From a virus: a DNA stretch of 25,682 nucleotides. This document shows positions 12,709-25,648 of the stretch, piece by piece (positions within the stretch are counted from its first letter, which is position 1; each line of letters begins with the position of its first letter). The notes below the pieces were generated by a model. The model ran no database searches and was not told where the DNA came from. It saw only the letters and a program-made list of their open reading frames with translations. A program made the position numbers and the translations under genes. The stretch covers positions 1 to 25,682 of the IMG/VR virus record IMGVR_UViG_3300010160_000205; one strand, 5' to 3'.

Positions 12709-12711
12709 CCA

Positions 12712-13336: not shown

Positions 13337-13347
13337 AACCTTTGTCT

Positions 13348-13680: not shown

Positions 13681-13708
13681 TTTTGTTCCTTTCCGTCAGT
13701 GTAGTACT

Positions 13709-13737
13709 ATTATATCAGGTATACTGATAAAAGTAAA
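13709..13737 (-). promoter_or_regulatory. promoter (repeat family), best-consensus copy
   Basis: TTTACT (13732-13737), 17 bp, TATAAT (13709-13714) with ACCTGA before the -10. The TAG stop of the upstream gene directly abuts the -35. Confidence 0.85.
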
Positions 13738-14624: not shown

Positions 14625-14627
14625 TAC

Positions 14628-14795: not shown

Positions 14796-14823
14796 TTTTA
14801 TCCCTTCGTCGTTTGGTATTACT

Positions 14824-14852
14824 ATTATATCAGGTTTACTTCTTTGAGTACA
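14824..14852 (-). promoter_or_regulatory. promoter (repeat family) overlapping the end of the 59-aa gene
   Basis: TGTACT (14847-14852), 17 bp, TATAAT (14824-14829). The last codons and TAA stop of the upstream gene lie inside the spacer (AAGTAAACCTGATATAAT). Confidence 0.8.
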
Positions 14853-15015
14853 TTACCTTGCACAAGGCTTCGTACTTTTCATCTAGGAACTTGATTAAGT
14901 TTTCAGGGAGGGGCTGAATCTCTACCTCGCCACGTTCTGAACGACCGCGTCCGCGCTTAGCCAGTTTGACACCGGCGTATAGAACCGCGCTGTCCTTGAC
15001 TAATCCTTTGAACAT
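14836..15015 (-). CDS. small basic hypothetical protein, 59 aa
   Basis: Start at the ATG at 15015, preceded by AAAGGAAAGAA; a reading from 15039 would include that ribosome site. N-terminal half is basic (KLAKRGRGRSERG), C-terminal half is a short amphipathic helix. It has its own promoter and a hairpin at the predicted 5' end of the mRNA. No family recognised. Confidence 0.68.
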   Translation of the reverse strand: MFKGLVKDSAVLYAGVKLAKRGRGRSERGEVEIQPLPENLIKFLDEKYEALCKVMYSKK

Positions 15016-15032
15016 TTTCTTTCCTTTTCTAC

Positions 15033-15047
15033 CAGCCACCTTGGCTG
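15033..15047 (-). promoter_or_regulatory. 5'-terminal mRNA hairpin
   Basis: CAGCCA / TGGCTG with a 3-nt loop, one base after the predicted transcription start of the 15015 gene. Confidence 0.5.
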
Positions 15048-15055
15048 ATAGGTTA

Positions 15056-15084
15056 ATTATAACATGGTGGTGGTAGAAAGTAAA
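15056..15084 (-). promoter_or_regulatory. promoter (repeat family)
   Basis: TTTACT (15079-15084), 17 bp, TATAAT (15056-15061); here the -10 is preceded by CATGT rather than CCTGA. The -35 begins just after the stop of the 15087 gene. Confidence 0.8.
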
Positions 15085-15086
15085 CC

Positions 15087-15362
15087 TTACTCGTCGGTAA
15101 CGTCTTCCTCATCCGGCCACATCTCCGGGCGTAGGGCAAATTCGTATTGGTCACCCCTCCAGGAGTTTGTCCCGAACGAGATGTCTTCTTCCATTAGTTT
15201 GTTTAGGGACAGGACCGCAGTGTGTCCTTCGGCCTTAAACATGATGACCAGCTTCGTGTCTGACTGTTCAGGGTCATCAACGAGAGCTACAGTGAACGGC
15301 ATCCCACCAACTCCATTTCGGTGAGTATCCATATCTACAATTTCTAGCTTATCGGCGTTCAT
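15087..15362 (-). CDS. hypothetical protein, 91 aa
   Basis: ATG at 15362 overlaps the upstream stop as ATGA, preceded by AAGAGAG; the longer frame to 15377 is not favoured. Beta-rich with an acidic end (MWPDEEDVTDE). No motif or family recognised. Last gene of the operon starting at 16764. Confidence 0.68.
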   Translation of the reverse strand: MNADKLEIVDMDTHRNGVGGMPFTVALVDDPEQSDTKLVIMFKAEGHTAVLSLNKLMEEDISFGTNSWRGDQYEFALRPEMWPDEEDVTDE

Positions 15363-15523
15363 GATTCTCTCTTCCATTCTGGTCGTCTCTTAGAAATCTC
15401 ATGGGTTGCTAAATCCATCTTGTGTTTGTGCAGCCAATCCTTTGCTACAGTTTCATTGATGAACTCACCCAGCCATTTTCCTTGTGGGTCGAACACATTT
15501 ACAAGATCGTATAAGCTACTCAT
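15359..15523 (-). CDS. hypothetical protein, 54 aa
   Basis: ATG at 15523 overlaps the stop of the HTH gene (ATGA) and its stop overlaps the next start (ATGA), so it lies in a fully coupled series. It begins SLYDLVNVFDPQGKWLGEF and has a basic C-terminus (SKRRPEWKRES). Function unknown; the tight coupling is the main support. Confidence 0.7.
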   Translation of the reverse strand: MSSLYDLVNVFDPQGKWLGEFINETVAKDWLHKHKMDLATHEISKRRPEWKRES

Positions 15524-16101
15524 TGAGAAACTCGATTAGCTGTCTTGACTGGCGTATAGCAAGTGCTCTTACCAGTCTTAGGTTGCAAGTATCCGTAACG
15601 AGCTAATCGAAAGCGTAGAGCTCCATGAGTAACCCCAAGGCATTTAGCAAGACGGTACAGAGTAACTTTTTCTACCGTGTAAGCTTTCCAAACTAAAGCG
15701 CTGTACTCTTCAGCTTCAGCTCGGTATTGTTTGTGGTCGTAGCGAACTTTCTGTGCAAGAGGTTGTAGCTCAAGTAAACGAGCTAGAGTCTCCTTGCTTG
15801 GCAAGATCGGTACATGCACATCTTTAACCTCAACGTCTTCAAGTGGAACAGACGGCATAGGGAATTCTCCGGGATTAGCAAGAATGCTAAGAACGAGAGA
15901 AGGCTGGGCTGATGATTCGATTTGACGAATACGCTCTCGGGTAAGACCCATTGCATTCGCAAGACTTTGCAGTGTCCACTTGTTACAGCGGAGTGCGTAC
16001 ACGTAAGCTGCACGAGTTTCTTTGTCTTTGATTAGACCAAGTTTAACGGTAGCTTCGAACGGCAACACTAAGTGTTGTCTAACTTCTTTTTTTACTATCA
16101 T
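15520..16101 (-). CDS. DNA-binding protein with two HTH segments (sigma-region-4-like)
   Basis: 193 residues, ATG at 16101 after AAAGGAAAC. The first HTH (residues 42-64, WTLQSLANAMGLTRERIRQIE) closely resembles sigma-70 region 4, which contacts the -35 element. A second HTH (residues 144-168, VTLYRLAKCLGVTHGALRFRLARYG) follows a linker with LARLLELQPLAQKVRYD. The layout matches the 165-residue protein at 5714-6211. With about twenty very similar promoters around it, a phage transcription factor is an attractive inference, but nothing in the sequence shows RNA polymerase binding. Confidence 0.8.
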   Translation of the reverse strand: MIVKKEVRQHLVLPFEATVKLGLIKDKETRAAYVYALRCNKWTLQSLANAMGLTRERIRQIESSAQPSLVLSILANPGEFPMPSVPLEDVEVKDVHVPILPSKETLARLLELQPLAQKVRYDHKQYRAEAEEYSALVWKAYTVEKVTLYRLAKCLGVTHGALRFRLARYGYLQPKTGKSTCYTPVKTANRVSQ

Positions 16102-16110
16102 TTGTTTCCT

Positions 16111-16320
16111 TTAGTTAATTGCTAGTGGGTCGCACGTAGGGAGAGTGTGAGTTCTCCAGTCGGTAATAACTGTGTCTAGTACCTCGGCAAGATCTTCCGG
16201 TAATTGCGCTGCGATAAGCTTTACAGTCGCAACTGTAACCGCATTCCCTGTAAAGATATCATCGTGCTCAGACTGATTGAATCCGCACATGTGACACAAG
16301 TCTCCTCCGCCACTACTCAT
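16111..16320 (-). CDS. hypothetical protein, 69 aa, possible zinc site
   Basis: ATG at 16320 overlaps the upstream stop (ATGA). CHMCGF near residue 9 plus a following H may bind zinc; the rest is helical (VKLIAAQLPEDLAEVLDTVITDW). No family recognised. Confidence 0.68.
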   Translation of the reverse strand: MSSGGGDLCHMCGFNQSEHDDIFTGNAVTVATVKLIAAQLPEDLAEVLDTVITDWRTHTLPTCDPLAIN

Positions 16321-16472
16321 GCGGCCACCTGCGCTTGACTCTTAATACGAGCTTGGAGATCTGAAACCATGTGGGCAAGGTGATGGAATCCCGCATTTTG
16401 GCAGGAAGCTTTCTCTTTGCCAAGCGCGCGCAGAATTAACTCTACGTCTTTGTCGGTAAGTTCGATGTTCAT
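16317..16472 (-). CDS. small helical protein, 51 aa
   Basis: ATG at 16472 two bases after the stop of the preceding gene; its TGA overlaps the next ATG. It starts MNIELTDKDVELILRALGKEKA and continues as a single helical protein (LAHMVSDLQARIKSQA). Similar short LTxxEaxxixxaL-type proteins are frequent in phages, with no known function. Confidence 0.7.
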   Translation of the reverse strand: MNIELTDKDVELILRALGKEKASCQNAGFHHLAHMVSDLQARIKSQAQVAA

Positions 16473-16473
16473 A

Positions 16474-16764
16474 TTAAATCGCCCCTTCTTTTGAGAGGAC
16501 CGCGTTCTTTACAAGCGCGACCACGTCTTTGTTAAATCCACCAATGTTGTACTCCATAACTTCATCCATGTCAGGCGCACCTAAATCGTAGCGTTTCCAA
16601 TCATAGATTGTCGCAACAGACCCATCTGAAAACATGTGGGTCCATTCAACGGTAACTTTGTCACCTGGGTAGTAGAACGTTGGTTCGTCAAATGCCTTAA
16701 TGAGATCTCTCATTGTAGTTGTGACATACCCTTGTAGGGATGTTCCATTTGCGATGTTGCTCAT
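16474..16764 (-). CDS. conserved phage hypothetical protein, 96 aa
   Basis: ATG at 16764, preceded by GAAAGGAC and a repeat-family promoter. The core DLIKAFDEPTFYYPGDKVTVEWTHMF and SVATIYDWKRY matches a pattern I associate with a common actinobacteriophage family of unknown function. Soluble alpha/beta protein; no catalytic motif. First gene of a six-gene operon ending at 15087. Confidence 0.8.
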   Translation of the reverse strand: MSNIANGTSLQGYVTTTMRDLIKAFDEPTFYYPGDKVTVEWTHMFSDGSVATIYDWKRYDLGAPDMDEVMEYNIGGFNKDVVALVKNAVLSKEGAI

Positions 16765-16793
16765 TTCTTTGTCCTTTCGTCGTTGTTAGTACT

Positions 16794-16822
16794 ATTATAT
16801 CATGTTTACTTGTCTAAGTAAA
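16794..16822 (-). promoter_or_regulatory. promoter (repeat family) within the end of the 74-aa gene
   Basis: TTTACT (16817-16822), 17 bp, TATAAT (16794-16799). The -35 and spacer also encode the last residues YLDK and the stop of the upstream gene. GTTTACTT-AGAC-AAGTAAAC forms a perfect inverted repeat across the -35 and spacer. Confidence 0.85.
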
Positions 16823-17030
16823 CTATCTCCACAAATTCATTTGCCCAGGCGGTAAGCCCAGCTTCCATCTTGTTTTTATGATGACCGCAGAAGAATAGCT
16901 CAGCTCCGGAGTTCCCTTTTACTTTCCAGATTGCCTGAGCTGTCTGGCAGGAATCACAAGGAACCCAACCGTAGGAATCCTTGGGTGCTTCCTCAAGTAC
17001 TTCTACTTCTTCAGTAATAGTAGACTCCAC
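16806..17030 (-). CDS. DUF7455-like small zinc-binding protein
   Basis: 74 residues from the GTG at 17030, preceded by AAAGGAGA at 7 bases; the long frame up to 17258 overlaps two other genes and is rejected. The motif CDSCQTAQAIWKV...ELFFCGHHKNKM is characteristic of short actinobacterial and phage proteins of the DUF7455 type, with two Cys, one Cys and two His likely forming a zinc site. Function unknown. Confidence 0.82.
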   Translation of the reverse strand: MESTITEEVEVLEEAPKDSYGWVPCDSCQTAQAIWKVKGNSGAELFFCGHHKNKMEAGLTAWANEFVEIVYLDK

Positions 17031-17064
17031 GTTCTCTCCTTTAGTTAAGTTAATCATACTTGGT

Positions 17065-17304
17065 TTAGAAATTATTGTTTGGGTTGTACCAACCTTCGCG
17101 TGAGTTTTCCTCACCGCATTTGTTGCACACCCACTCGGCAAACCATGTGACAGTATCGTGCGAGTACTCTTCGATGCTAGGAACCTCATAACAAGCATCG
17201 CACTCGTCATTGCCGCAGTCAAGCTCTTGAATACCTTCACTCTCATCTGCGCCGGCAATCTGCCATTCAGACCCAGAGACGCCTGGTGGATAGTTGCTAC
17301 TCAT
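17065..17304 (-). CDS. conserved actinophage-type protein with zinc ribbon, 79 aa
   Basis: ATG at 17304 overlaps the upstream stop (TAATG). The opening MSSNYPPGVSGSEWQIAG is a pattern I associate with small actinobacteriophage proteins. Cysteine pairs CGNDECDAC (residues 30-38) and CNKC (residues 60-63) form a probable zinc ribbon. No known activity. Confidence 0.78.
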   Translation of the reverse strand: MSSNYPPGVSGSEWQIAGADESEGIQELDCGNDECDACYEVPSIEEYSHDTVTWFAEWVCNKCGEENSREGWYNPNNNF

Positions 17305-17495
17305 TAGTTGTTCCGGTGATTTAGGAAGTCTTCAATGGTGTTGTGAATCGCATCATTAATGTTATCGGCAAGTTTGTCGATTTCTTCCTGAGTGAATTCT
17401 ACCGCACCTTCTTCATCCATGTAACACCACATATGCTTAAGTTGATCTAAGGTCAGACTTGAGTCGTAGATCACTTGGTCTTCTTGTTCTTCCAT
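17304..17495 (-). CDS. small acidic helical protein, 63 aa
   Basis: ATG at 17495, preceded by GAAGGGAAG and a repeat-family promoter. The segment LTLDQLKHMWCYMDEEGAVEFTQEEIDKLADNINDAIHNTIEDFLN matches the 68-residue protein at 21503-21709 in pattern (VLYxxxxT..., FTxxxLDKLxxxLNDxxxxxxxDFI), so the two are paralogs. Function unknown. Confidence 0.75.
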   Translation of the reverse strand: MEEQEDQVIYDSSLTLDQLKHMWCYMDEEGAVEFTQEEIDKLADNINDAIHNTIEDFLNHRNN

Positions 17496-17525
17496 TTTCT
17501 TCCCTTCGTCGTTTTGTATAAGTTA

Positions 17526-17554
17526 ATTATATCATACTATAGATCTAAAGTAAA
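17526..17554 (-). promoter_or_regulatory. promoter (repeat family)
   Basis: TTTACT (17549-17554), 17 bp, TATAAT (17526-17531), with GTATGA before the -10. Starts the 63-, 79- and 74-residue gene operon. Confidence 0.85.
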
Positions 17555-17567
17555 CTAAGGTGTTGAA

Positions 17568-17593
17568 GGTACCCTACCGGTGAGTAGGGTACC
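17568..17593 (-). terminator. hairpin after the 147-aa gene
   Basis: GGTACCCTAC / GTAGGGTACC, 10 perfect pairs with a 6-nt loop, nine bases after the stop. The T-run is weak (TTCAACACCTT). Its flanks match those of the hairpin at 18127 but the stem sequence differs. Confidence 0.65.
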
Positions 17594-17601
17594 CGCAACT
17601 A

Positions 17602-18045
17602 CTACTCTGGGTAAGAGTTAAGGAAGAACTCTTGAAGATCTGCATCAACCCAGAAGCCTCTGTAGAAAGGACTCATTGATGAGTCTTCTGTATCTAAAAG
17701 ATTCTTAAAGTAGTCTTCAATTACTTCTTCTTTTACATCAACACTCATGAAGGGGAGGTACCGTGTTCCTTCAATTGTAATGTAGGTGCCCGCATCTAAC
17801 CAGTGATATGTGTTATCTGGGTATCTGAAGGTTACTACTTGACCGTCTGCATCTACTTCAACAACTTCTGCTTGGTCTACATTAAGTGATGGTTCTACTT
17901 GGATATCTTGGAATAGGGTTCTACTTGCTATGTAGCTTTTAAGAGAGGTTGTCTTTGAGTTCTTAAACAACTCGTGGAACTTTTGTGAAGGTGTAAGTGT
18001 GGTGTCTTGTGAGACCTTTACTATATCTAAGTGTGTTGGGTACAT
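17602..18045 (-). CDS. hypothetical protein, paralog of 18162-18608 product
   Basis: 147 residues from the ATG at 18045; the frame opens four codons earlier at a TTG that is really part of the TTGGAACC ribosome-site element. The N-terminal KFHELFKNSKTTSLKSYI and C-terminal FMSVDVKEEVIEDYF align with the neighbouring 148-residue protein (HFERKFKNTPAVDFKSYL; ILSFDVDYEDIIVYL). Acidic, beta-rich centre with a YLPF segment. Same promoter, 5' hairpin, ribosome-site and terminator arrangement as its paralog, which points to duplication of the whole cassette. No known family. Confidence 0.76.
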   Translation of the reverse strand: MYPTHLDIVKVSQDTTLTPSQKFHELFKNSKTTSLKSYIASRTLFQDIQVEPSLNVDQAEVVEVDADGQVVTFRYPDNTYHWLDAGTYITIEGTRYLPFMSVDVKEEVIEDYFKNLLDTEDSSMSPFYRGFWVDADLQEFFLNSYPE

Positions 18046-18066
18046 TTTAGGTTCCAATCTAATTAC

Positions 18067-18081
18067 TAACCCTTGTGGTTA
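18067..18081 (-). promoter_or_regulatory. 5'-terminal mRNA hairpin
   Basis: TAACC / GGTTA stem with a 5-nt loop beginning two bases after the predicted transcription start of the 18045 gene. Confidence 0.6.
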
Positions 18082-18089
18082 ATAAGATA

Positions 18090-18118
18090 ATTATATCATA
18101 CTTTTATTATAAAGTAAA
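18090..18118 (-). promoter_or_regulatory. promoter (repeat family)
   Basis: TTTACT (18113-18118), 17 bp, TATAAT (18090-18095), GTATGA before the -10. The 28-bp element is identical to the copy at 18653-18681. Confidence 0.88.
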
Positions 18119-18126
18119 CAATTGAA

Positions 18127-18153
18127 GGTAACCCTCAAGGGGAGAGGGTTACC
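18127..18153 (-). terminator. hairpin after the 148-aa gene
   Basis: GGTAACCCTC / GAGGGTTACC, 10 perfect pairs, loop of 7 nt, just after the stop and immediately before the next promoter. Weak T-run. Stem differs from, but flanks match, the hairpin at 17568. Confidence 0.65.
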
Positions 18154-18161
18154 CGCAACTA

Positions 18162-18608
18162 TTACTTTAGTGGGTACTTGTCCGCATCTTCTTGGGTAAC
18201 TGGGATCATCTGACCGAAGTCTTGGTTAGTGAACTCAGAGTTAAGGTAGACTATAATGTCTTCATAATCTACATCAAAAGAAAGAATTGTGTAATTGTAG
18301 GTAGGATTACTGAAGTCTACTGTGTAATCTTTAGAACCTGTGTCTTCTACTAAGGTAGGTTCTAACTGATCTTCATCTACTGAATAGTAGATACCTTGTG
18401 GAGTCTTTACTAGGTAGTGACCCGCATCCCCAGAACCTGTACCTATAGATAGAAGGATGGTTCCTTCTGGGAGGTTAAAGGTGTAAGGGGTTTCTAGAGA
18501 CTCGTAAAAGTAGTATCTGTTGTTTTCATCATTTAGATATGATTTGAAATCTACTGCTGGGGTGTTCTTGAACTTTCTTTCAAAGTGATTAAGAGTTGAA
18601 TCTTTCAT
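18162..18608 (-). CDS. hypothetical protein, paralog of 17602-18045 product
   Basis: 148 residues from the ATG at 18608; the four codons before it (from a TTG) belong to the ribosome-site element. Acidic, rich in Y, D, T; predicted mostly beta (GTILLSIGTGSGDAGHYLVKTPQGIYYSVDEDQLEP). No signal or membrane segment. Similar in pattern to its neighbour (see KSYL and SFDVDYEDI). Function unknown. Confidence 0.76.
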   Translation of the reverse strand: MKDSTLNHFERKFKNTPAVDFKSYLNDENNRYYFYESLETPYTFNLPEGTILLSIGTGSGDAGHYLVKTPQGIYYSVDEDQLEPTLVEDTGSKDYTVDFSNPTYNYTILSFDVDYEDIIVYLNSEFTNQDFGQMIPVTQEDADKYPLK

Positions 18609-18628
18609 TTTAGGTTCCAATCTATTTT

Positions 18629-18645
18629 TTAACCTCGGTGGTTAA
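18629..18645 (-). promoter_or_regulatory. 5'-terminal mRNA hairpin
   Basis: TTAACC / GGTTAA stem with a 5-nt loop directly at the predicted transcription start of the 18608 gene. Confidence 0.62.
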
Positions 18646-18652
18646 TAGTATA

Positions 18653-18681
18653 ATTATATCATACTTTTATTATAAAGTAAA
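18653..18681 (-). promoter_or_regulatory. promoter (repeat family)
   Basis: TTTACT (18676-18681), 17 bp, TATAAT (18653-18658); identical to the copy at 18090. Confidence 0.88.
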
Positions 18682-18720
18682 CAATTGAATTGAAGAAGGT
18701 AGAAGAAGTCATATAGATCA

Positions 18721-18732
18721 ATTATATCATGT
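18721..18732 (-). promoter_or_regulatory. additional upstream -10 (CATGATATAAT)
   Basis: A second extended -10 68 bases upstream of the 18653 promoter, with an AT-rich but non-consensus -35. Probably a tandem promoter for the same gene. Confidence 0.5.
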
Positions 18733-18773
18733 TTTATTATATTTTTGTTAAATATAAAAATAAAAATACGAAA

Positions 18774-18793
18774 GGCCCAGCGTGAGCTGGGCC
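18774..18793 (-). terminator. strong intrinsic terminator
   Basis: GGCCCAGC / GCTGGGCC, 8 perfect GC-rich pairs, 4-nt loop, followed by TTTCGTATTTTTATTTTT on the minus strand, 12 bases after the stop of the 88-aa gene. Confidence 0.92.
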
Positions 18794-18805
18794 AGTCGCG
18801 GCAAG

Positions 18806-19072
18806 TTAGCGATTCGCAGAAACGAAATCGTTGACGGTAGGATAGTGTGCGAGACAGTTAGTCATGATTGATTGCGCAGGTGACAAGTCGAGAAACGAAA
18901 TTGACGGCAGAGTTTGATTGTCGCAAGATTCGTGTTCGCAGTAGAAGTCAGAGTCAGCGAAGTTGATTTCGCAGTTGTAATTTTCGTCGGCGTCGAAATC
19001 GTTGAATAAAGTTGGGTCGATTTCGAGTGTCATTGCGTTAGTCGCAGTGGCGGTGATTTTTATTTGTGTCAT
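18806..19072 (-). CDS. hypothetical acidic protein, 88 aa
   Basis: ATG at 19072, preceded by TTGGAGAAAATC; the earlier TTG at 19084 is the ribosome element. Acidic with TCG/GAA-rich codons and two close cysteines (CEHESC near residue 46). The pattern MTQIKITATATNAMTLEIDPTLFND suggests a small beta protein. Flanked by its own promoter and strong terminator, a single-gene transcription unit. No family recognised. Confidence 0.72.
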   Translation of the reverse strand: MTQIKITATATNAMTLEIDPTLFNDFDADENYNCEINFADSDFYCEHESCDNQTLPSISFLDLSPAQSIMTNCLAHYPTVNDFVSANR

Positions 19073-19104
19073 GATTTTCTCCAATTCGTTAAGTTAATAA
19101 TTGA

Positions 19105-19133
19105 ATTATATCAGGTCAATTATATTTTGTAAA
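19105..19133 (-). promoter_or_regulatory. promoter (repeat family)
   Basis: TTTACA (19128-19133), 17 bp, TATAAT (19105-19110), with ACCTGA before the -10. Starts the 88-aa gene. Confidence 0.85.
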
Positions 19134-19153
19134 TACGAAAGGCCGGAGAGCTT

Positions 19154-19173
19154 TGGAGCGCCTTAGCGCTCCA
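19154..19173 (-). terminator. hairpin spanning the stop codon of the 82-aa gene
   Basis: TGGAGCGC / GCGCTCCA, 8 pairs with TAAG loop; the last codons form one arm and the TAA stop is in the loop. Downstream comes GGCCTTTCGTATTT as after the previous terminator. Confidence 0.6.
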
Positions 19174-19411
19174 TCGCCTCCCAGTCTCCTTCTAATAACT
19201 CACAATCTAAAATATCATCCGCACCTTCATACCACATCTTCAATTTATCCAACGATTCATTTGGGACTTCAATTACAATTGACGGCCAACTAGCTTCGCG
19301 GCTCTTTTTAATTACAATAACATTCGAACCTGAAACAAAATTCTTCAACGATTCTAACGACTCACTAAACGACATCGTTTCTGTCACGATATCTAATTCA
19401 TACTTTTTCAT
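19163..19411 (-). CDS. hypothetical protein, 82 aa
   Basis: ATG at 19411 after TTGGAGTCCAAA. Alpha/beta pattern: MKKYELDIVTETMSFSESLESLKNFV then VIVIKKSREASWPSIVIEVP and a helical acidic end. No known family; one-gene unit with its own promoter, 5' hairpin and hairpin at the stop. Confidence 0.72.
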   Translation of the reverse strand: MKKYELDIVTETMSFSESLESLKNFVSGSNVIVIKKSREASWPSIVIEVPNESLDKLKMWYEGADDILDCELLEGDWEAMER

Positions 19412-19429
19412 TTTGGACTCCAATCCATT

Positions 19430-19448
19430 TATAACGTATTTCGTTATA
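19430..19448 (-). promoter_or_regulatory. 5'-terminal mRNA hairpin
   Basis: TATAACG / CGTTATA, 7 pairs with a 5-nt loop, starting at the predicted transcription start. The stem sequence differs from its neighbours but the shape and position are kept. Confidence 0.65.
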
Positions 19449-19453
19449 GGATA

Positions 19454-19481
19454 ATTATATCAGGTTTTATTATAAAGTAAA
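19454..19481 (-). promoter_or_regulatory. promoter (repeat family)
   Basis: TTTACT (19476-19481), 16 bp, TATAAT (19454-19459), ACCTGA before the -10. Its -35 overlaps the tail of the terminator of the upstream gene. Confidence 0.83.
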
Positions 19482-19482
19482 C

Positions 19483-19512
19483 AAGCTAGGGTGCTTTGCC
19501 GCACCCTAGCTT
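19483..19512 (-). terminator. strong bidirectional intrinsic terminator
   Basis: AAGCTAGGGTGC / GCACCCTAGCTT, 12 perfect pairs with a 6-nt loop, after the stop of the 84-aa gene. Minus-strand tail GTTTACTTT also serves as the next -35; the plus strand has TTTTTATTTT. Confidence 0.9.
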
Positions 19513-19524
19513 TTTATTTTACTT

Positions 19525-19779
19525 TTAGTCTAGATAGTTTTCAATTGCCTCGGTAAGTATCTCGGTAAACTTTGTACGAAACTCTAGGACCGCAGCTTCG
19601 ATAACCGCATCTTTATCCAGAGACTTTACGAAGTCTTCAATTTCAACTGCGTCACTCTTTAGCTCAAAGAATTCATCTGCGATACGCATGTGAACTTCGC
19701 CGCGCTCTTGGCGCTCTGCAGATTCGAGAATACGGAACGCTGAGATTTCCCCAAGCTGGGCGTTAATTTCTTTTTTCAT
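19525..19779 (-). CDS. hypothetical acidic helical protein, 84 aa
   Basis: ATG at 19779 after TTGGAGTCCAA. Charged helices throughout (FRILESAERQERGEVHMRIADEFFELKSDAVEIEDFVKSLD; LEFRTKFTEILTEAIENYLD). No motif or family recognised. One-gene unit with promoter, 5' hairpin and terminator. Confidence 0.72.
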   Translation of the reverse strand: MKKEINAQLGEISAFRILESAERQERGEVHMRIADEFFELKSDAVEIEDFVKSLDKDAVIEAAVLEFRTKFTEILTEAIENYLD

Positions 19780-19804
19780 TTGGACTCCAATTCTTTTTTT
19801 GTCT

Positions 19805-19821
19805 TTAACCTTTGTGGTTAA
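19805..19821 (-). promoter_or_regulatory. 5'-terminal mRNA hairpin
   Basis: TTAACC / GGTTAA with a 5-nt loop at the predicted transcription start of the 19779 gene. Confidence 0.65.
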
Positions 19822-19828
19822 TAAGATA

Positions 19829-19857
19829 ATTATATCAGGTCAATTATAAAAAGTACA
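19829..19857 (-). promoter_or_regulatory. promoter (repeat family)
   Basis: TGTACT (19852-19857), 17 bp, TATAAT (19829-19834), GACCTGA before the -10. The -35 abuts the terminator stem of the upstream gene. Confidence 0.83.
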
Positions 19858-19884
19858 GGATAGGCGCTTTGCTTCGCGCCTACC
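19858..19884 (-). terminator. intrinsic terminator
   Basis: GGTAGGCGC / GCGCCTATCC with one bulge and an 8-nt loop, followed by TGTACTTTTT, which is also the next -35. Confidence 0.75.
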
Positions 19885-19897
19885 CCGTAGCTTTTAA

Positions 19898-20128
19898 TTA
19901 GTCTTCTAACTCAATCTCTAACTCTTCGATTTGTGCCTGAAGGTAGCTTTCAACAAGTTCCTTAACCTTTGGGCCAACAATCGCCCATACGGTTTCAAGG
20001 TCGCATGATTTCATATCTTCAAGCGAGAAATCTTCAAACTGAATTCGTGTATCGAATTCATAAACTGATGCGTAGTTTTCAAACCATCCGACAATCTCGC
20101 CGGCAACTTCGTTATTTTTATTAACCAT
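19898..20128 (-). CDS. hypothetical acidic helical protein, 76 aa
   Basis: ATG at 20128 after TTGGAGACTCAA. Aromatic and acidic N-terminal half (GWFENYASVYEFDTRIQFEDFSLEDMKSCDLE), helical C-terminus ending ELEIELED. No motif or family recognised. One-gene unit. Confidence 0.72.
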   Translation of the reverse strand: MVNKNNEVAGEIVGWFENYASVYEFDTRIQFEDFSLEDMKSCDLETVWAIVGPKVKELVESYLQAQIEELEIELED

Positions 20129-20147
20129 TTGAGTCTCCAATCAACTA

Positions 20148-20164
20148 TTAACGTAGCTCGTTAA
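20148..20164 (-). promoter_or_regulatory. 5'-terminal mRNA hairpin
   Basis: TTAACG / CGTTAA with a 5-nt loop at the predicted transcription start of the 20128 gene. Confidence 0.62.
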
Positions 20165-20171
20165 TAAGATA

Positions 20172-20200
20172 ATTATAACATGGTTCTATTATAAAATACA
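20172..20200 (-). promoter_or_regulatory. promoter (repeat family, variant)
   Basis: TGTATT (20195-20200), 17 bp, TATAAT (20172-20177), with CATGT before the -10. Nearly identical to the copy at 22101-22129. Confidence 0.75.
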
Positions 20201-20204
20201 ATCC

Positions 20205-20476
20205 AAAATGAAAGAAGCTGGTTACATGGATTGGAGTACACGTAACCAGCTTCAAATCACTGGGCGAAACAGTTTGCTCACCTAGGTTCTGATTCGCGCT
20301 TCACTTTTTGCGCAATACCGTATGTCGATTTTGCTATACGGTTTTAATCCTAACTTCCCTAAGACTATATCGCTCTGTCTCTTTCCTAAGTCAAGTTACC
20401 CTGCGGTAACCGTCAGCTTATCGGGATTAGTGTCCCCATGGGATACCCTTATGCTCCAAGACTTAGTAAGCCCATT
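20205..20476 (-). ncRNA. candidate structured non-coding RNA, about 270 nt
   Basis: A stretch without any ORF longer than a few codons, between a repeat-family promoter (-10 at 20483-20488, predicted start near 20476) and a strong terminator (20214-20253). On the minus strand it can pair TGGGC near the 5' end with GCCCA just before the terminator, CTAAGTC with GACTTAG, GTTACC with GGTAAC (4-nt loop), and ACCGTAT with ATACGGT (12-nt loop). I cannot assign it to tmRNA, RNase P RNA, 6S RNA or a riboswitch. Two short strings recall group I intron core elements but no P8 is seen. A free-standing phage regulatory or structural RNA is the best reading. Confidence 0.6.
20214..20253 (-). terminator. 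terminator of the non-coding RNA
   Basis: GAAGCTGGTTAC / GTAACCAGCTTC, 12 perfect pairs with a 16-nt loop, followed on the minus strand by TTTCATTTTGG. Confidence 0.85.
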
Positions 20477-20482
20477 GGTACT

Positions 20483-20494
20483 ATTATATCATGC
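20483..20494 (-). promoter_or_regulatory. promoter -10 of the non-coding RNA
   Basis: GCATGATATAATAGTACC on the minus strand, same extended -10 and downstream AGTAC as other copies. No good -35 at 17 bp. Confidence 0.65.
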
Positions 20495-20535
20495 CCGTTA
20501 GCCTTTTGGCACGTTTTTATGTACCAGGCCACTAT

Positions 20536-20910
20536 TTAATTAAATAGAACCGTTACCTCTGCTTCGTATGCCTTACGAAGCTTGCCCGCTAATTCCTGTA
20601 GCTGTATAAGCCATGCCGTTGGTAAACCCAGGTTGTCCCCGTCATCGTCCGTGCCACCGGTGAACACGATGTCACCCATGATTACGTCCGTCATGCCAAA
20701 GCTCTTCTCCCATAGGTGCGTGCCGATAACATTAGTAAGCATGCCGTTAATTAGCTTGCCTTCCTCGTTACACCAAAGTGTGAGGTCGTCCCGTAGGTCC
20801 GCCGCTTGTACCCAGCCGCCGACCGCTTCCTGAAGCTTCTTCAGGCTGTCCGTTTCAATATCTAAGACCTCGGTTGTGAAGTCCGTGTTAATTCGCAATG
20901 CTGTTTTCAT
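20536..20910 (-). CDS. DUF3846-like protein
   Basis: 124 residues from the ATG at 20910, which overlaps the upstream stop (ATGA); the longer frame to 20940 lies in the previous gene. The pattern LDIETDSLKKLQEAVGGWVQAADLRDDLTLWCNEEGKLINGMLTNVIGT, then DVIMGDIVFTGGTDDDGDNLGL fits DUF3846, a family of small phage and plasmid proteins of unknown function (NEEG...N...T and GD-x-V-x-TG). Codons here are more GC-rich than in the small genes at 17.5-20.2 kb. Confidence 0.82.
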   Translation of the reverse strand: MKTALRINTDFTTEVLDIETDSLKKLQEAVGGWVQAADLRDDLTLWCNEEGKLINGMLTNVIGTHLWEKSFGMTDVIMGDIVFTGGTDDDGDNLGLPTAWLIQLQELAGKLRKAYEAEVTVLFN

Positions 20911-21092
20911 GACGCCGCTATCTCCGCTTCTGGAAACCACTTGAGAAATGTTTGGATGAGATGAGTGTAGTCTCCTGAAGTCATCTCTTCGGTAAATGTT
21001 GCAAGCTCGTCTTCACGACCCGCACTTATTAAAGCACGCCGACCGGCGCCGATAAATGAGAAAGCATTCCCATCGTTAACTGAAATTGTCAT
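20907..21092 (-). CDS. hypothetical protein, 61 aa
   Basis: ATG at 21092 overlaps the upstream stop (ATGA) with GAGGAGATGAG before it; its stop overlaps the DUF3846-like start. Mixed polar protein ending in a helix (THLIQTFLKWFPEAEIAA). No family recognised. Confidence 0.72.
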   Translation of the reverse strand: MTISVNDGNAFSFIGAGRRALISAGREDELATFTEEMTSGDYTHLIQTFLKWFPEAEIAAS

Positions 21093-21319
21093 GCGCTCAT
21101 CTCCTCTACGAATATGTGTCCAGGTCCGTTACCTTCAGGATCTTGTGACGGTACGAATCCAAGCCCGTTGTCGAGAATGTAGACTACAGGTATCGAGCCT
21201 CCAGCTTGTTCCCAACCGAACAGATCTAATTCTTCTTTGTTTAGCTCGCGGACCTTGACAATTGTTCGCCCAATAAGCGAGCCCCACTCTTTTGTAATGT
21301 ATGCGTCGTACTTACTCAT
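21089..21319 (-). CDS. conserved phage-type hypothetical protein, 76 aa
   Basis: ATG at 21319, ribosome site GACGAAAGGA, start overlaps the stop of the small ORF 21316-21408. The segment LIGRTIVKVRELNKEEL...IPVVYILDNGLGFVPSQDPEGNGPGHIFV resembles a short beta protein common in phages (ending in PSxDPEGNGPG); function unknown. First well-supported gene of a three-gene coupled operon. Confidence 0.76.
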   Translation of the reverse strand: MSKYDAYITKEWGSLIGRTIVKVRELNKEELDLFGWEQAGGSIPVVYILDNGLGFVPSQDPEGNGPGHIFVEEMSA

Positions 21320-21408
21320 CGTGCATCCTTTCGTCGTTTTAGGTGTTCAAGGGCCGCGGTGATCTTCGGCCTATCTTGCCAGAGGTGCCTGCAGATTATG
21401 CACGGCAC
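21316..21408 (-). CDS. possible small zinc-motif ORF in a structured leader
   Basis: A frame ending in TGA that overlaps the next ATG (ATGA). It has coding-like sequence with CIICRHLW and a basic helical end (ALEHLKRRKDAR). From the GTG at 21408 it is 30 residues. The same frame stays open a further 15 codons upstream without an ATG/GTG/TTG, so the real start is uncertain, and no clear ribosome site is seen. The ORF lies in the loop between two 10-base inverted arms. Confidence 0.45.
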   Translation of the reverse strand: MPCIICRHLWQDRPKITAALEHLKRRKDAR

Positions 21409-21466
21409 ATGGACTCGGGCGTCGCGTGTTCCGCCTAGTTTAACTAGTGGCTAGCACCCTTGAACA
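21344..21466 (-). promoter_or_regulatory. long-range inverted repeat in mRNA leader
   Basis: TGTTCAAGGG at the predicted 5' end of the transcript (21457-21466) is complementary to CCCTTGAACA (21344-21353), just before the ribosome site of the 21319 gene. It would close a leader domain of about 120 nt. Confidence 0.55.
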
Positions 21467-21471
21467 GTTTA

Positions 21472-21500
21472 ATTATATCAGGTGGTGGGGAAGAAGTACA
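21472..21500 (-). promoter_or_regulatory. promoter (repeat family)
   Basis: TGTACT (21495-21500), 17 bp, TATAAT (21472-21477), ACCTGA before the -10. Starts the operon with the structured leader. Confidence 0.83.
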
Positions 21501-21502
21501 GC

Positions 21503-21709
21503 TTACTCAAGACCTTCGATGAAATCTTGTACTACCTCAAGAACAGAGTCATTTAGTAAGTCGTGAAGCTTATCGAGCTGCGCTGGTGTGAAAGAAGAAG
21601 ACGTGTATTCGTTAGTGTCGCTATAGTATGATACGTAATTTGCGTGGTCAATAAAGTCTTCGACTGTCATTGTGTACTTGTAGAGTACATGATCTGCTGG
21701 GTAACTCAT
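21503..21709 (-). CDS. hypothetical protein, paralog of 17304-17495 product
   Basis: 68 residues, ATG at 21709 after GGAAGGAATCC. Y/D/E-rich, helical C-terminus (AQLDKLHDLLNDSVLEVVQDFIEGLE). Aligns in pattern with the 63-residue protein at 17304-17495. It also has its own promoter. Function unknown. Confidence 0.74.
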   Translation of the reverse strand: MSYPADHVLYKYTMTVEDFIDHANYVSYYSDTNEYTSSSFTPAQLDKLHDLLNDSVLEVVQDFIEGLE

Positions 21710-21737
21710 TTTGGATTCCTTCCGTCGTTGTGGTTTA

Positions 21738-21766
21738 ATTATAATAGGTTTTAGAGAAAAAGTACA
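21738..21766 (-). promoter_or_regulatory. promoter (repeat family)
   Basis: TGTACT (21761-21766), 17 bp, TATAAT (21738-21743); preceded by ACCTAT, so the TGA extension is lost. Confidence 0.75.
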
Positions 21767-21773
21767 GGGTGCC

Positions 21774-22070
21774 TCAGCAGAGGCAGACCCCGGACTTTGA
21801 TGGTGTTGTGAAACAGGTTCCGCAGGTGTTAAGGATTACCTTTGGTTTGTTAGATTGCTTGTGTGGGTTTACCGCACCAATCTTAGCAAGCTTTGTTGCC
21901 ACAGAATAGTAACTGCGACCTAGTTGCTTTGCGATGTCCTTAATAGACATCTTGCCAGCTCGAAGAGTTTCCATCGTACGCATCTCTGCTATGGTCCACT
22001 CTTCATTTAAGTTGACCGCGGTTTCGAGTGAGAAGCTTTGAGCTCCTCGCATCCAATCTTGTGAGTCCAT
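21774..22070 (-). CDS. Myb/SANT-like HTH protein with C-terminal cysteines
   Basis: 98 residues from the ATG at 22070, preceded by GGAAGGATTG. Residues 22-65 (EEWTIAEMRTMETLRAGKMSIKDIAKQLGRSYYSVATKLAKIG) match the GcrA/SANT-like helix-turn-helix pattern (W-T-x-x-E...I-A-x-x-L-G-R-S). The C-terminus has CGTCF...CLC, likely a zinc site. A DNA-binding regulator is the likely role. Single-gene unit. Confidence 0.8.
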   Translation of the reverse strand: MDSQDWMRGAQSFSLETAVNLNEEWTIAEMRTMETLRAGKMSIKDIAKQLGRSYYSVATKLAKIGAVNPHKQSNKPKVILNTCGTCFTTPSKSGVCLC

Positions 22071-22100
22071 TTTCAATCCTTCCGTCGTTGGTATGGTTTA

Positions 22101-22129
22101 ATTATAACATGGTTCTATTATAAAATACA
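22101..22129 (-). promoter_or_regulatory. promoter (repeat family, variant)
   Basis: TGTATT (22124-22129), 17 bp, TATAAT (22101-22106), ACCATGT before the -10; same variant as at 20172. Confidence 0.75.
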
Positions 22130-22142
22130 ACACCTTCCGGAA

Positions 22143-22376
22143 TTATTTTTTGTTCTCGTACTCCCAGTAGCTTTTAGCCAGCTCGTAAAACATCTTCGCA
22201 AGACCAGGGGTAACCTCGTATCCAATCTGCTCACACGAGGAACGGCAATATCCATTGTCAATGTCGTCCATTAGCTCCGGGTCCTTTAACAGCTTTTCTG
22301 AAGAGAAGATGAATCCGGTGTCTGCTAAATCAAAAAATGTATCCATGCCTTCATGGGCAACGTAAATGCTATCCAT
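22143..22376 (-). CDS. hypothetical protein, 77 aa
   Basis: ATG at 22376 overlaps the upstream stop (TAATG). Acidic N-terminal half, CRSSC near residue 44, helical aromatic C-terminus (LAKMFYELAKSYWEYENKK). No motif or family recognised. Confidence 0.72.
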   Translation of the reverse strand: MDSIYVAHEGMDTFFDLADTGFIFSSEKLLKDPELMDDIDNGYCRSSCEQIGYEVTPGLAKMFYELAKSYWEYENKK

Positions 22377-22528
22377 TATCCAACCTGAAAATCATCGCAA
22401 TAGCGACATTGGTATGAGTCGCCTAGAATTGAGCGTGGGTCATAGTTGTGAATGTAATCGTGCTGCTCTTGAGTTGCGCAGAATTGGAAATCGCCTCTAC
22501 GAATATAAGTGCGTTGTTTCGTTATCAC
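22376..22528 (-). CDS. small cysteine-containing protein, 50 aa
   Basis: GTG at 22528 after ACGACGAAAGGACAACC; the frame to 22558 would run through the ribosome site. Contains FCATQEQHDYIHNYDPRS and CRYC, possibly one zinc site. Its leader holds a long perfect hairpin. Confidence 0.7.
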   Translation of the reverse strand: MITKQRTYIRRGDFQFCATQEQHDYIHNYDPRSILGDSYQCRYCDDFQVG

Positions 22529-22551
22529 GGTTGTCCTTTCGTCGTTAGTGG

Positions 22552-22611
22552 AGCTCACCGGAACTTTTCCATATCCTGTCCCGGAATTGGAAAGGCACGT
22601 TCCGGTGAGCT
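22552..22611 (-). promoter_or_regulatory. long leader hairpin
   Basis: AGCTCACCGGAAC / GTTCCGGTGAGCT, 13 perfect pairs (22599-22611 and 22552-22564), with a further inner CCTTTCCA / TGGAAAAG helix. The first arm starts at the predicted transcription start; the ribosome site follows the second arm. Confidence 0.75.
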
Positions 22612-22618
22612 TAGTACT

Positions 22619-22632
22619 ATTATATCAGGTTA
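22619..22632 (-). promoter_or_regulatory. promoter -10 abutting the protease stop codon
   Basis: TAACCTGATATAATAGTAC on the minus strand; the TAA is the stop of the subtilisin-like gene. -10 at 22619-22624; the -35 is weak. Confidence 0.65.
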
Positions 22633-23535
22633 CCAGTACTTTTGTTCGAATACCGTTACCGTACGGTAAGCATTTTGTAGAGACGCCTTAACGTTATCCA
22701 TTACCGTTCCTATGGCCAAGCCACCCGATAGCTCTTTAGCCAGTCTGGTAGCTACTGAGACCGTTGCACCTGAGGTACCCAGGCTAACCGCCTTGACTCC
22801 GTTTATATCGGTTGCCGTCCATCGTCCCATGGCGTATAGGTCTAGCTCCGGGCTGGAGTTCGAAATTAGCATGATGGGGTAAACCGTGCCCGTGATCTGC
22901 TTGATGGTGTACGGGGTATCCGTTGCTCCTACCGCAATAGCTTGCGGTATGCACGCCGGATAGTTAATTTTCTTTTGATCTGAATTGTTACCCGTTGAAA
23001 TAACAACCGGCACGTTAACCGAGGCTAGCCCGACGATTTGAGCTTGTAGCTTTGCTTCGATAGGGCATGCCGCTTCTCTATACACCCGTCCGAAGGAAAC
23101 TGATACCGCGCCGACGTTTAGCCGTGCCGCATTGGCAGATACCCAGTCGAGAGCAAGTGCTAAAGCTTTAGTGGTGTAGGTGTTTGCGTATCCCGTACGA
23201 GACATGCCGACAACACGAACGAACACTATCTTTACATCTGGGTTTACCGTTACTGCAATAGACGCCATTTGCGTACCGTGACTCATAGCTTTGTCTTTTA
23301 CTAGAGTTGGGTCTACGTAAGCTGCACCGGGGCCAACCATACTTATCGTTCCGTTTGGACACGTGCCGTATTCGATGAAGCAAGCTTCTTCGATGACCGC
23401 ATTCTTTGCCCAGTCGAGATTTGTGTTGATGCCGGAGTCGATGATGACAAGAGTTTTATCGCTTGCCGCATTCGCCGGAGTTGAAAGTAGAGCTAAGCCT
23501 AAGGCTGCACATATAAGTAGCGCTTTAGTTTTCAT
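22630..23535 (-). CDS. secreted subtilisin-like serine protease (S8)
   Basis: 301 residues. The signal peptide (MKTKALLICAALGLALLSTPANA) has a likely cleavage after residue 23. The subtilase triad is visible: D33 in VIIDSGIN, H86 in SHGTQMASI, S255 in GTSGATVSVA, with oxyanion N183 in STGNNS. The cysteines at 52, 59, 157 and 195 could form disulfides in an extracellular protein. There is no obvious propeptide: D33 lies about ten residues after the signal cleavage, which is short for the family. ATG at 23535 has GAAAGAAGGAACC upstream and overlaps the previous small gene by 11 bases. Likely acts outside or on the surface of the host. Confidence 0.9.
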   Translation of the reverse strand: MKTKALLICAALGLALLSTPANAASDKTLVIIDSGINTNLDWAKNAVIEEACFIEYGTCPNGTISMVGPGAAYVDPTLVKDKAMSHGTQMASIAVTVNPDVKIVFVRVVGMSRTGYANTYTTKALALALDWVSANAARLNVGAVSVSFGRVYREAACPIEAKLQAQIVGLASVNVPVVISTGNNSDQKKINYPACIPQAIAVGATDTPYTIKQITGTVYPIMLISNSSPELDLYAMGRWTATDINGVKAVSLGTSGATVSVATRLAKELSGGLAIGTVMDNVKASLQNAYRTVTVFEQKYW

Positions 23536-23671
23536 TGGTTCCTTCTTTCATTGTGTCGTTGTATTTGGTTTTACGTGTATACTTCTTTTTATTAGTAAGT
23601 GGCCGAGCTGCGTTCGATCTCCGGAGTTCAAGTAATCTCCGGAGTTCTTCTTTTGTCTTTGGTAGTTTCAT
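23525..23671 (-). CDS. small basic protein, 48 aa
   Basis: ATG at 23671. The N-terminus has a tandem LRRLLELRRS with a matching DNA direct repeat (GAACTCCGGAGAT at two sites), followed by a lysine-rich tail (TNKKKYTRKTKYN). No clear ribosome site. It overlaps the protease start, so it may couple the two. A nucleic-acid binding or leader function is possible. Confidence 0.6.
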   Translation of the reverse strand: MKLPKTKEELRRLLELRRSNAARPLTNKKKYTRKTKYNDTMKEGTNEN

Positions 23672-23684
23672 AATAGTTGTGGGA

Positions 23685-23730
23685 CCGGTGTGGCCGGGGA
23701 CTATCTGACGGAAGGATCCGACCACACCGG
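23685..23730 (-). repeat. 13-bp inverted repeat between genes
   Basis: CCGGTGTGGTCGG / CCGGCCACACCGG (one G-T pair), 20-nt loop, six bases after the vWA stop and 14 before the small basic gene. No T-run, so a terminator, attenuator or processing hairpin are all possible. Confidence 0.65.
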
Positions 23731-23736
23731 AGCTTG

Positions 23737-25533
23737 TTAGGCAGCCCGCTGCCCAATCTTTGTAAGCGCCTTCGCTGCTGCAGAACCAATCTGCACCGCA
23801 GCTTCTGCTGGGTCTCGTACATCTGAAAGAATCACGGTGTCCGGACCTGCTATCGAACGAGCGTAACTGCCTTCTCCGAATGGAATCCAAAGTATCGCGA
23901 CTCCAGCTTTTTCACAAGCGCGAACCCATGCTTTAGCTTTTGAGCGTTCATCGTCTGTGTAGCAACCATCGCTAACAATTACGAGTAGACGAGCGCCAGT
24001 TCCATTGAGAAGACTTAGAGAACCATCAAGTGCCTTGAACGCCTTATCGAACTTTTCAGTTCCATCAGGTGCAGTGTACACGGTAACTTGATCAAGGTGC
24101 TGTCCTGGCTTAAGTGTAGGGAACACATCCTGTCCGTAGTAAACCATTGCGCACTTACCTTGAACGCGTCGAACAGCTTCTGACATCGCCCAAGCAGTTG
24201 CTGCCATAGGCTCCATGGCTGACGCCATTGAACCAGAGATGTCAACCATAACTCCAACGTTAAGCGTTGGGTCATCTGTATGACGACGTACAGTTCTACG
24301 CCAAGGTTCTGCATGCATCATAGGATTCACAACTTTGTAAGCTGCTTCCTGAACCATTGCGCGAGTGCGCAGGCGACCGGGAGGGAGAATAGATTTAATC
24401 TCCTTCTCGTCACGCTCACGATACTTAGCTTTTTCTAAGAGCTGAGCAATCTTAACTGCTGCTGCACGCTCAGGACCAGTAGGGTTACGAGTTTCTTTTA
24501 CACGAGAATGCGTCTTGAATGCTGACATCTCACCAGTAGCTTTTGCAAACACTTCGTTAGCAGTTTTCTCGTGGTCACGTTGTTGCTTAGCAGCTAAGCC
24601 ACGCATGTCGACAACATCTTTCCACTCTTCAGCTTGCTCTTGATCTTGAGCTTCATCGTTTACAGAGATCGCAATCTCTTCAGATGCTTCTTTCAAAGCT
24701 TCTATGACTTCACCAAGGATGCCATCGAGAAGAATAAGAATTCCCTTTTCACCAAGTGGAGCTTCGTCATCACCTTTGTCTGCAGCAAGCTTAGAGATGA
24801 TGTCGTCCCATTCTTTTGCAAGAACGAGTAGGTTTGTTGGATCACTATGTAGCTCGTGCTTTTGAAAGCGTAACCACACGTTGCGAAGTTGTGCGTATAC
24901 TTCTGTACCGAAGAAAGTAAGTAAGAGATCTTTTATCTCGTACGCGTCTTCTTCATCTAGTGACCCTGCGTCAACGCGAGCCATAACTAGTCCAGCCACT
25001 CGTCCCATAGAACGAGTAGTTGTAGCTTCAGCAAGTGAAGATTTAATATCTTCAAGAATGATATCCATTGCGCAAGCACGAAGGAACACTCTATTGTTTG
25101 GATAGTTTTCTACACCGAGAGCTTCGATACGAGTCTCTTCAAGAAGGGTAAGTGCGTCGAACACATTGCGACTTACTTCTTTGTCTTCAAGGATCTTTAG
25201 AAGATCGTAGCGAGAGTATCGAGCGTGCAGTGCTTCATGAAAGATAGCTCCTGCGCCTCGTGGATAGTTAAATTGAATTGTTCTATTGCGAATGTCGCCA
25301 ATAGTTTCAGGAGATACTCCTACGCCGAAAGCTACATCCACGTTGACCTCAACTTCAGCCATTGGTGGATTAAAGCATGCAGGCGCTGGTCCTCCAGCTC
25401 CTGGGCCAACGTATGCGACGATGTCGCTGCGTCCTGCCCAGGTGTTCACGAGCTCGCCCAGCTGGGCACCAACGCGTAGCCACTCTGGCTGCGTACGTTC
25501 TGCTCGGGTCATTGATAACTTAATGTGTCCCAT
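23737..25533 (-). CDS. vWA-domain protein with HExxH metal site
   Basis: 598 residues, ATG at 25533 after GGAAGGATTACA. The N-terminal domain has FHEALHARYS (H99, E100, H103), the zincin HExxH motif, and LEETRIEA about 30 residues later, which could give the third ligand. A long charged helical middle (260-390) is followed by a von Willebrand A domain from about 425 with MIDAS DISGS (431-435), T446 and a later VSDGCYTDD. Such proteins act with MoxR-type AAA+ ATPases as metal-insertion or disassembly chaperones; a partner ATPase would be expected upstream, outside the window. Whether the HExxH is a working peptidase is not shown. Confidence 0.87.
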   Translation of the reverse strand: MGHIKLSMTRAERTQPEWLRVGAQLGELVNTWAGRSDIVAYVGPGAGGPAPACFNPPMAEVEVNVDVAFGVGVSPETIGDIRNRTIQFNYPRGAGAIFHEALHARYSRYDLLKILEDKEVSRNVFDALTLLEETRIEALGVENYPNNRVFLRACAMDIILEDIKSSLAEATTTRSMGRVAGLVMARVDAGSLDEEDAYEIKDLLLTFFGTEVYAQLRNVWLRFQKHELHSDPTNLLVLAKEWDDIISKLAADKGDDEAPLGEKGILILLDGILGEVIEALKEASEEIAISVNDEAQDQEQAEEWKDVVDMRGLAAKQQRDHEKTANEVFAKATGEMSAFKTHSRVKETRNPTGPERAAAVKIAQLLEKAKYRERDEKEIKSILPPGRLRTRAMVQEAAYKVVNPMMHAEPWRRTVRRHTDDPTLNVGVMVDISGSMASAMEPMAATAWAMSEAVRRVQGKCAMVYYGQDVFPTLKPGQHLDQVTVYTAPDGTEKFDKAFKALDGSLSLLNGTGARLLVIVSDGCYTDDERSKAKAWVRACEKAGVAILWIPFGEGSYARSIAGPDTVILSDVRDPAEAAVQIGSAAAKALTKIGQRAA

Positions 25534-25559
25534 TGTAATCCTTCCGTCTGTTAGGTACT

Positions 25560-25571
25560 ATTATATCAGGT
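25560..25571 (-). promoter_or_regulatory. promoter -10 (repeat family) after tRNA
   Basis: ACCTGATATAATAGTACC on the minus strand just downstream of the tRNA; -10 at 25560-25565. The -35 would fall within the tRNA 3' arm and does not match. It starts the vWA gene. Confidence 0.65.
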
Positions 25572-25574
25572 AAG

Positions 25575-25648
25575 TGGGGAGAGTGGGGCTCGAACCCACG
25601 ACGACCGGATTATGAGTCCGGGGCTCTAACCAACTGAGCTATCTCCCC
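25575..25648 (-). tRNA. tRNA-Met (anticodon CAT)
   Basis: Full cloverleaf on the minus strand: acceptor GGGGAGA/TCTCCCC, D-arm TAGCTCAGTTGGTTAGAGC, anticodon stem CCGGA/TCCGG with loop CTCATAA (anticodon at 25612-25614), T-arm GTGGG-TTCGAGC-CCCAC, discriminator A. CCA is not encoded. It could be elongator Met or, if the C34 is modified, Ile. Confidence 0.94.

Follow-up and report, generated by a model that had tools for sequence, protein, structure and literature searches.

The window, meaning the whole stretch of DNA analysed here, is a 25,682-base IMG/VR virus record, and the candidate RNA lies on its minus strand, as do the genes. The intergenic gap that holds it (20141-20535, 395 nt) follows a gene for a DUF3846 protein (Table 1). 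The RNA measures ~270 nt with its terminator and its fold ~215 nt; UGGGC (20474) and GCCCA (20261), the two strands of a closing helix P1, bound the body, and the terminator comes next. The window holds 22 TGNTATAAT sites where 0.8 would be expected, and 21 are on the minus strand; the one at 20491-20483, TGATATAAT, is the extended -10 element of the RNA and places the predicted transcript start near 20476. The terminator stem (20253-20214) consists of 15 pairs capped by a loop of 10 nt, and its tail is TTTCATTTT. In 19 of 21 compared sequences the promoter element precedes P1 by 14-35 nt; in L020 the distance is 101 nt, and in L097 the element was not seen. A stem of 12-16 pairs with a T-rich tail directly follows P1 in 19 of the same 21, the two exceptions being L098 and L103, where a GGGTCGAAAGACCC-type hairpin was read by eye instead. 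Promoter, fold and terminator are retained in nearly every homologue, and the RNA appears to be a stand-alone transcription unit whose own promoter and terminator are conserved with it. An earlier note on this DNA had proposed an RNA with its own promoter and terminator, transcribed in the direction of the genes. At the level of sequence both signals and the direction hold, in the window and, for the signals, in relatives; the terminator stands too, while the 12-bp length given for it falls short of the 15 pairs found.

Table 1. Features of the RNA locus (positions in the window unless a contig is named) and members of the groups of homologues
Feature	Position or members	Strand	Basis or partner
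DUF3846 (PF12957) gene upstream of the RNA and syntenic with it	20536..20940	minus	Pfam E = 1.1e-18
Extended -10 promoter element TGATATAAT	20483..20491	minus	sequence; copies in window and relatives
Folded RNA body, P1 5' strand to P1 3' strand	20261..20474	minus	full-length covariance model R1 and covariation
P1 5' strand TGGGC	20470..20474	minus	pairs with 20261-20265 (GCCCA); covaries
P2 5' strand CTAAGTC	20460..20466	minus	pairs with 20386-20392 (GACTTAG); covaries
48-nt conserved core	20412..20460	minus	shared by all groups; covariation in each of its three helices
P3 variable hairpin GUUACC/GGUAAC	20395..20410	minus	comparison of groups A and B
P2 3' strand GACTTAG	20386..20392	minus	pairs with 20460-20466; covaries
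P7 5' strand AGACAG, second branch from P1	20375..20380	minus	pairs with 20267-20272 (CTGTTT)
P5 hairpin ACCGUAU/AUACGGU, conserved loop AGCAAAAUCGAC	20317..20342	minus	covariation in group A
P6 hairpin GCGC-AAAAAGUGAA-GCGC	20296..20313	minus	alignment of group A
P1 3' strand GCCCA	20261..20265	minus	pairs with 20470-20474; covaries
Intrinsic terminator, 15-pair stem and U-rich tail	20205..20253	minus	sequence; kept in relatives
Second ~75-nt element	L012:10792-10876, L014:11205-11286, L020:6277-6356, L097:3935-4016		
Group A	window, L007, L008, L011, L012, L016, L017, L020, L028, L036, L102		
Group B	L019, L035, L038, L049, L113		
Group C	L009/L010/L015, L135/L136		
Group E	L098, L099/L100		
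Group F	L097, L101, L103, L104		

The 21 minus-strand TGNTATAAT elements (9449-25568) are near-identical extended -10s placed before many genes of the accessory half, mostly lack a good -35, and form a putative phage promoter family. A tRNA-Met (CAT) gene at 25574-25648 on the minus strand adjoins an TGATATAAT element. An 84-nt upstream region is repeated before four accessory genes (18043-18126, 18606-18689, 19782-19865 and 20125-20208; 61-90% identical), which suggests cassette duplication. Translations further point to two gene pairings on the minus strand: a 690-aa protein with a Dps/ferritin-like N-terminal domain (1189-3261) adjoins the portal gene, and at 11215-12135 and 12125-12670 a histone-deacetylase-like enzyme adjoins a dual-specificity-phosphatase-like protein. 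Related phages carry a second structured element of ~75 nt right after TGNTATAAT, at the message start (GCUGGUCACCUGAACGAC...GUCGGAAACAAUACG); 9 of its 20 predicted pairs have compensated changes in four sequences, and it has no Rfam match and does not occur in the window.

The terminase of the window shares 79% identity with its counterpart in Actinomycetia phage DSL-LC01, a 129-kb phage genome from a lake metagenome with Actinomycetia as predicted host (PMC10611076). The RNA is present on two contigs of 130,553 and 129,506 bases, and the uncultured lake-water phages that bear it probably have actinobacterial hosts.

Homologues in at least 34 other IMG/VR viral contigs were recovered by searching with a VWA-type neighbour protein, with DNA patterns taken from the RNA and with the DUF3846 neighbour; one of these contigs, L013 (3300027963_000336), is identical to the window here. 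They comprise about 20 distinct sequences in five divergent groups, for which we use the letters A, B, C, E and F (D is unused); a final DNA-pattern scan found no further group. Groups B and C were absent from the training of a full-length covariance model built on group A only (R1; 215 positions, 52 pairs), yet it detects both, B at E 1e-12 to 1e-23 and C at 2e-7 (4e-8 in L135/L136). A core model whose training left out group F (R2) picks up L103/L104 and L097/L101 with E between 2e-3 and 7e-3; all E-values of the R1-R3 models are rough. The layout of group F was then read in the sequence: promoter element (L103), P1, P2, core and terminator hairpin. R3 was trained with group F, whose scores under R3 are by construction.

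Pattern matches in L025, L030, L037, L039-L048, L050-L051, L053-L058, L060-L061, L149 and L150 had none of the remaining core and were judged to be chance, as was a single Lysinibacillus match, likewise lacking it, in one pattern scan of bacterial genome contigs. In a nucleotide search of 50,697 phage records the window RNA had no match, and the RNA of L038 only short ones at the promoter end of the query. The complete records of DSL-LC01, A3Wally, Pumpernickel, Sixama and GodonK, scanned with R1-R3, and those of LeBron, Reindeer and Kudefre, scanned with R3, yielded nothing credible; the match in Pumpernickel falls within a CDS. No cultured phage among the searched records carries the RNA.

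P1 appears to close a junction of two arms, the P2 arm with the 48-nt core and a variable P7 arm with P5 and P6. Folded without the terminator, 20475-20260 is unusually stable (z = -3.2; none of 200 shuffles as stable). Some of the most divergent members, such as L103 (z 0.01) and L015 (z -0.3), have no unusual stability when folded alone. The P1 pair is TGGGC/GCCCA in the window, TGGAC/GTCCA in most members, TGGAA/TTCCA in L098 and TTGAA/TTCAA in L097. P2 occurs as 12 distinct strand pairs across the homologues (CUAAGUC/GACUUAG, CUGAAUC/GGUUCAG and CUAGACC/GGUCUAG, for example), with 5.9 of 7 positions paired with the own partner against 3.8 of 7 with a swapped one; P1 likewise pairs better with its own partner. 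P5 has 98.6% of cells paired and three pairs changed on both sides (ACCGUAU/AUACGGU, ACCAUAC/GUAUGGU, ACCUGAU/AUCAGGU), and P6, with 100% paired, is almost invariant in group A. Group A has a P3 that varies and is shortened in L036; in group B it is absent or tiny. P7 is weak in group A alone (80% of cells paired, ambiguous, no double changes), and group B has GCAGAU/AUCUGC and GUAAAU/GUUUAC there, as read by eye. A further helix, P8, is CUUAGG/CCUAGG in the window, CGUAG/CUACG in L020 and AGAG/CUCU in L008; it is ambiguous in group A (74% of cells paired), where the local hairpin CUAACUU/AAGUUAG competes.

In an alignment of ten close relatives (A2), 92% of cells pair. Twelve pairs have changed on both sides yet remain paired, against a shuffled mean of 4.4, and 19 cells have changed on both sides against 5.0; neither figure was reached in 500 shuffles. 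When partners are slid by 1-3 columns only 0-3 compensated pairs are left. The phylogenetic null is approximated here by the shuffles and column slides. Compensatory changes exceed both controls and no coding signal accompanies them: the locus very probably encodes a structured non-coding RNA. This is what the earlier note had suggested, together with the long-range helices P1 and P2, which both exist and covary in relatives, and two local perfect hairpins, which are present as P5 and P3. The de novo covariation search it proposed for homologous phage regions thus gave 12 compensated pairs, and its counter-test, an intact coding frame in relatives, turned up none conserved, with covariation in its place.

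The core, ~48 nt in all groups, is built of a stem AGC/GCU, a UAA/GAN-like internal loop, a helix GGG/CCC and a hairpin UCCC-AUG-GGGA, with the consensus RUA(A/C)GGGU, hairpin, (A/C)UCCC(G/A)ANAAG. Over 15 sequences the outer stem varies as AGC/GCU, GGC/GCC and CC/GG, and the hairpin as UCCC/GGGA, UCUC/GAGA, ACCGC/GCGGU, UCCAC/GUGGA and GCCAC/GUGGC; the inner helix is altered in group F only, to CGG/CCG and UGG/CCA, both compensated. The triloop, mostly RUG, is AUG in groups A-E (GUG in L019/L035) and differs in F. A26C and G53A of the core change together in L102 and L015 (two events, with no statistic attached), as expected for a non-canonical contact. R3 matches the window core at 1.7e-16, the window being part of its training set.

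Rfam 15 (4227 families, including tmRNA, RNase P, 6S, SRP, GOLLD, ROOL and riboswitches) has no family that matches the RNA at gathering score, and the window gave only a tRNA. At E<=10, representatives of all groups had chance matches only, mostly to terminator stems: the best were 0.26 for the window (MIR827, terminator stem), 0.1 for L038 (terminator stem), 3 for L015 and 1.2 each for L103 and L098, with none for L012. The suggested covariance search thus returned no family for the window or any group representative, in keeping with the first impression that the RNA resembles neither tmRNA, RNase P nor 6S. No tRNA-like domain with a tag reading frame was found, ARAGORN detecting only the tRNA-Met. 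Open PMC text searches found no papers on the RNA, and one that names DUF3846. The family is new, being absent from Rfam, and of a known kind, the free-standing structured phage RNAs of unknown role.

GOLLD is much larger than the ~215 nt of the RNA here. Like GOLLD and other ornate phage or lake RNAs, ours is free-standing and structured, comes from lake or phage sequences and has no known cellular role (PMC2864571, PMC12286853); unlike GOLLD, it has different gene neighbours, and there is no covariance-model match between them. The 6S and Ms1-type RNAs have, unlike this multibranch RNA, a long bulged rod, and no Rfam match links them to it. These actinobacterial RNAs are stand-alone, structured and of comparable length. 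The packaging RNA of phi29 is likewise structured, encoded by a phage and transcribed as a unit of its own, but the phages here have an ordinary large terminase, and the RNA sits in an accessory gene island, not beside packaging genes.

Could the region instead code for protein, or serve as a leader of the next gene? A gene would be either a short conserved ORF, MGTLIPIS*, starting at the AUG of the core triloop, or a 59-aa ORF on the opposite strand (20322-20501). The triloop AUG or GUG of groups A-E, with GGG 6-7 nt ahead, and a UGA kept in group A and most of B speak for the former, but L113 (MAVYSRQ...) and L015 (MVEYSQ*) have a changed frame, and L103 and L097 no longer have the AUG. Of the antisense ORF, a break leaves 33 aa in L028, a sequence with 97.7% identity, and L012, L011 and L049 likewise have it broken or lack it. 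Any ORFs across this stretch are short and differ in frame, and some members have none; synonymous fractions are 0.17-0.27 in all six frames, none with an excess, and no reading frame is conserved across homologues. Both candidate genes were rejected, and we regard coding as extremely improbable. A riboswitch or attenuator, its terminator hairpin controlling the downstream gene, would suit the position of the terminator just upstream of a gene, a layout frequent in riboswitches. That gene, however, changes while the RNA stays the same (families 10, 14, 22, 2, 19, 3, 7, 5 and 11, plus singletons), it has its own TGNTATAAT-like element 3' of the terminator in the window and the other sequences read, and no Rfam riboswitch matches; a cis-regulatory leader, rejected for want of a constant downstream gene and for this separate promoter element, is highly unlikely. 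The upstream side is constant. Four of the five groups have the DUF3846 gene upstream of the RNA at a distance of one to three genes: one or two in groups A-C (third ORF by mechanical call in L028) and three in group E. Group F has the RNA ~1.1-1.4 kb upstream of that gene. Of 33 contigs with a DUF3846 protein matching the query at 58% identity or more, 30 have the RNA; the three where it was not found (L089, L105, L106) are all short. Among contigs with more distant DUF3846 proteins it occurs in 2 of 32 (L135, L136). A constant upstream and a variable downstream gene argue for a trans-acting transcript. We hold with strong confidence that these sequences are a structured, trans-acting RNA family, and the RNA is very likely free-standing and phage-encoded.

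So, what might it do in trans? The RNA would be expressed in infection, with transcription starting from an extended -10 promoter and stopping at an intrinsic terminator, both its own. Its core, a UAA/GAN-type internal loop and a short hairpin with a mostly RUG triloop, may be a binding surface, kept in position by the covarying helices, for a protein or ribonucleoprotein of host or phage. Such binding through the core is quite possible, if tentative. We favour a partner over base pairing because the most conserved nucleotides are in the paired, partly non-canonical core, whereas the exposed P5/P6 loops are remodelled between groups. An antisense sRNA whose loops AGCAAAAUCGAC (P5) and AAAAAGUGAA (P6) pair with host or phage messages would explain why these are conserved on variable stems within group A, and stand-alone units with terminators are typical of sRNAs; yet the best conserved part is no open seed, and groups B, C and E/F have a remodelled P5/P6 arm, which makes this rather unlikely. 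An RNA-only assembly, or sequestration of ribosome or polymerase in the manner of GOLLD/ROOL or 6S, would accord with the lake-water phage origin, the own promoter, the multibranch fold closed by P1 and a hairpin CCCAUGGG that is self-complementary in most of group A. In L113, L015, L098 and group F the hairpin no longer has this property, the RNA is only ~215 nt long, and neither GOLLD, ROOL nor 6S matches it in Rfam; we think that role distinctly improbable. It is conceivable, though unlikely, that the RNA founds a new class of actinophage ribonucleoprotein (or catalytic) RNA. The core, with its UAA/GAN-like loop and the joint A26C and G53A changes in it, would then be a binding or active site of a new sort, through which a host machine is taken over.

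Comparative support of this strength is uncommon for an RNA absent from Rfam in phages probably of lake actinobacteria. The covariance models can be used to find more members, and the RNA is a concrete target in which defined core mutations can show what effects small phage RNAs have on hosts. Its retention throughout most of the close DUF3846 lineage, despite turnover of the genes that follow, suggests that these phages probably need it.
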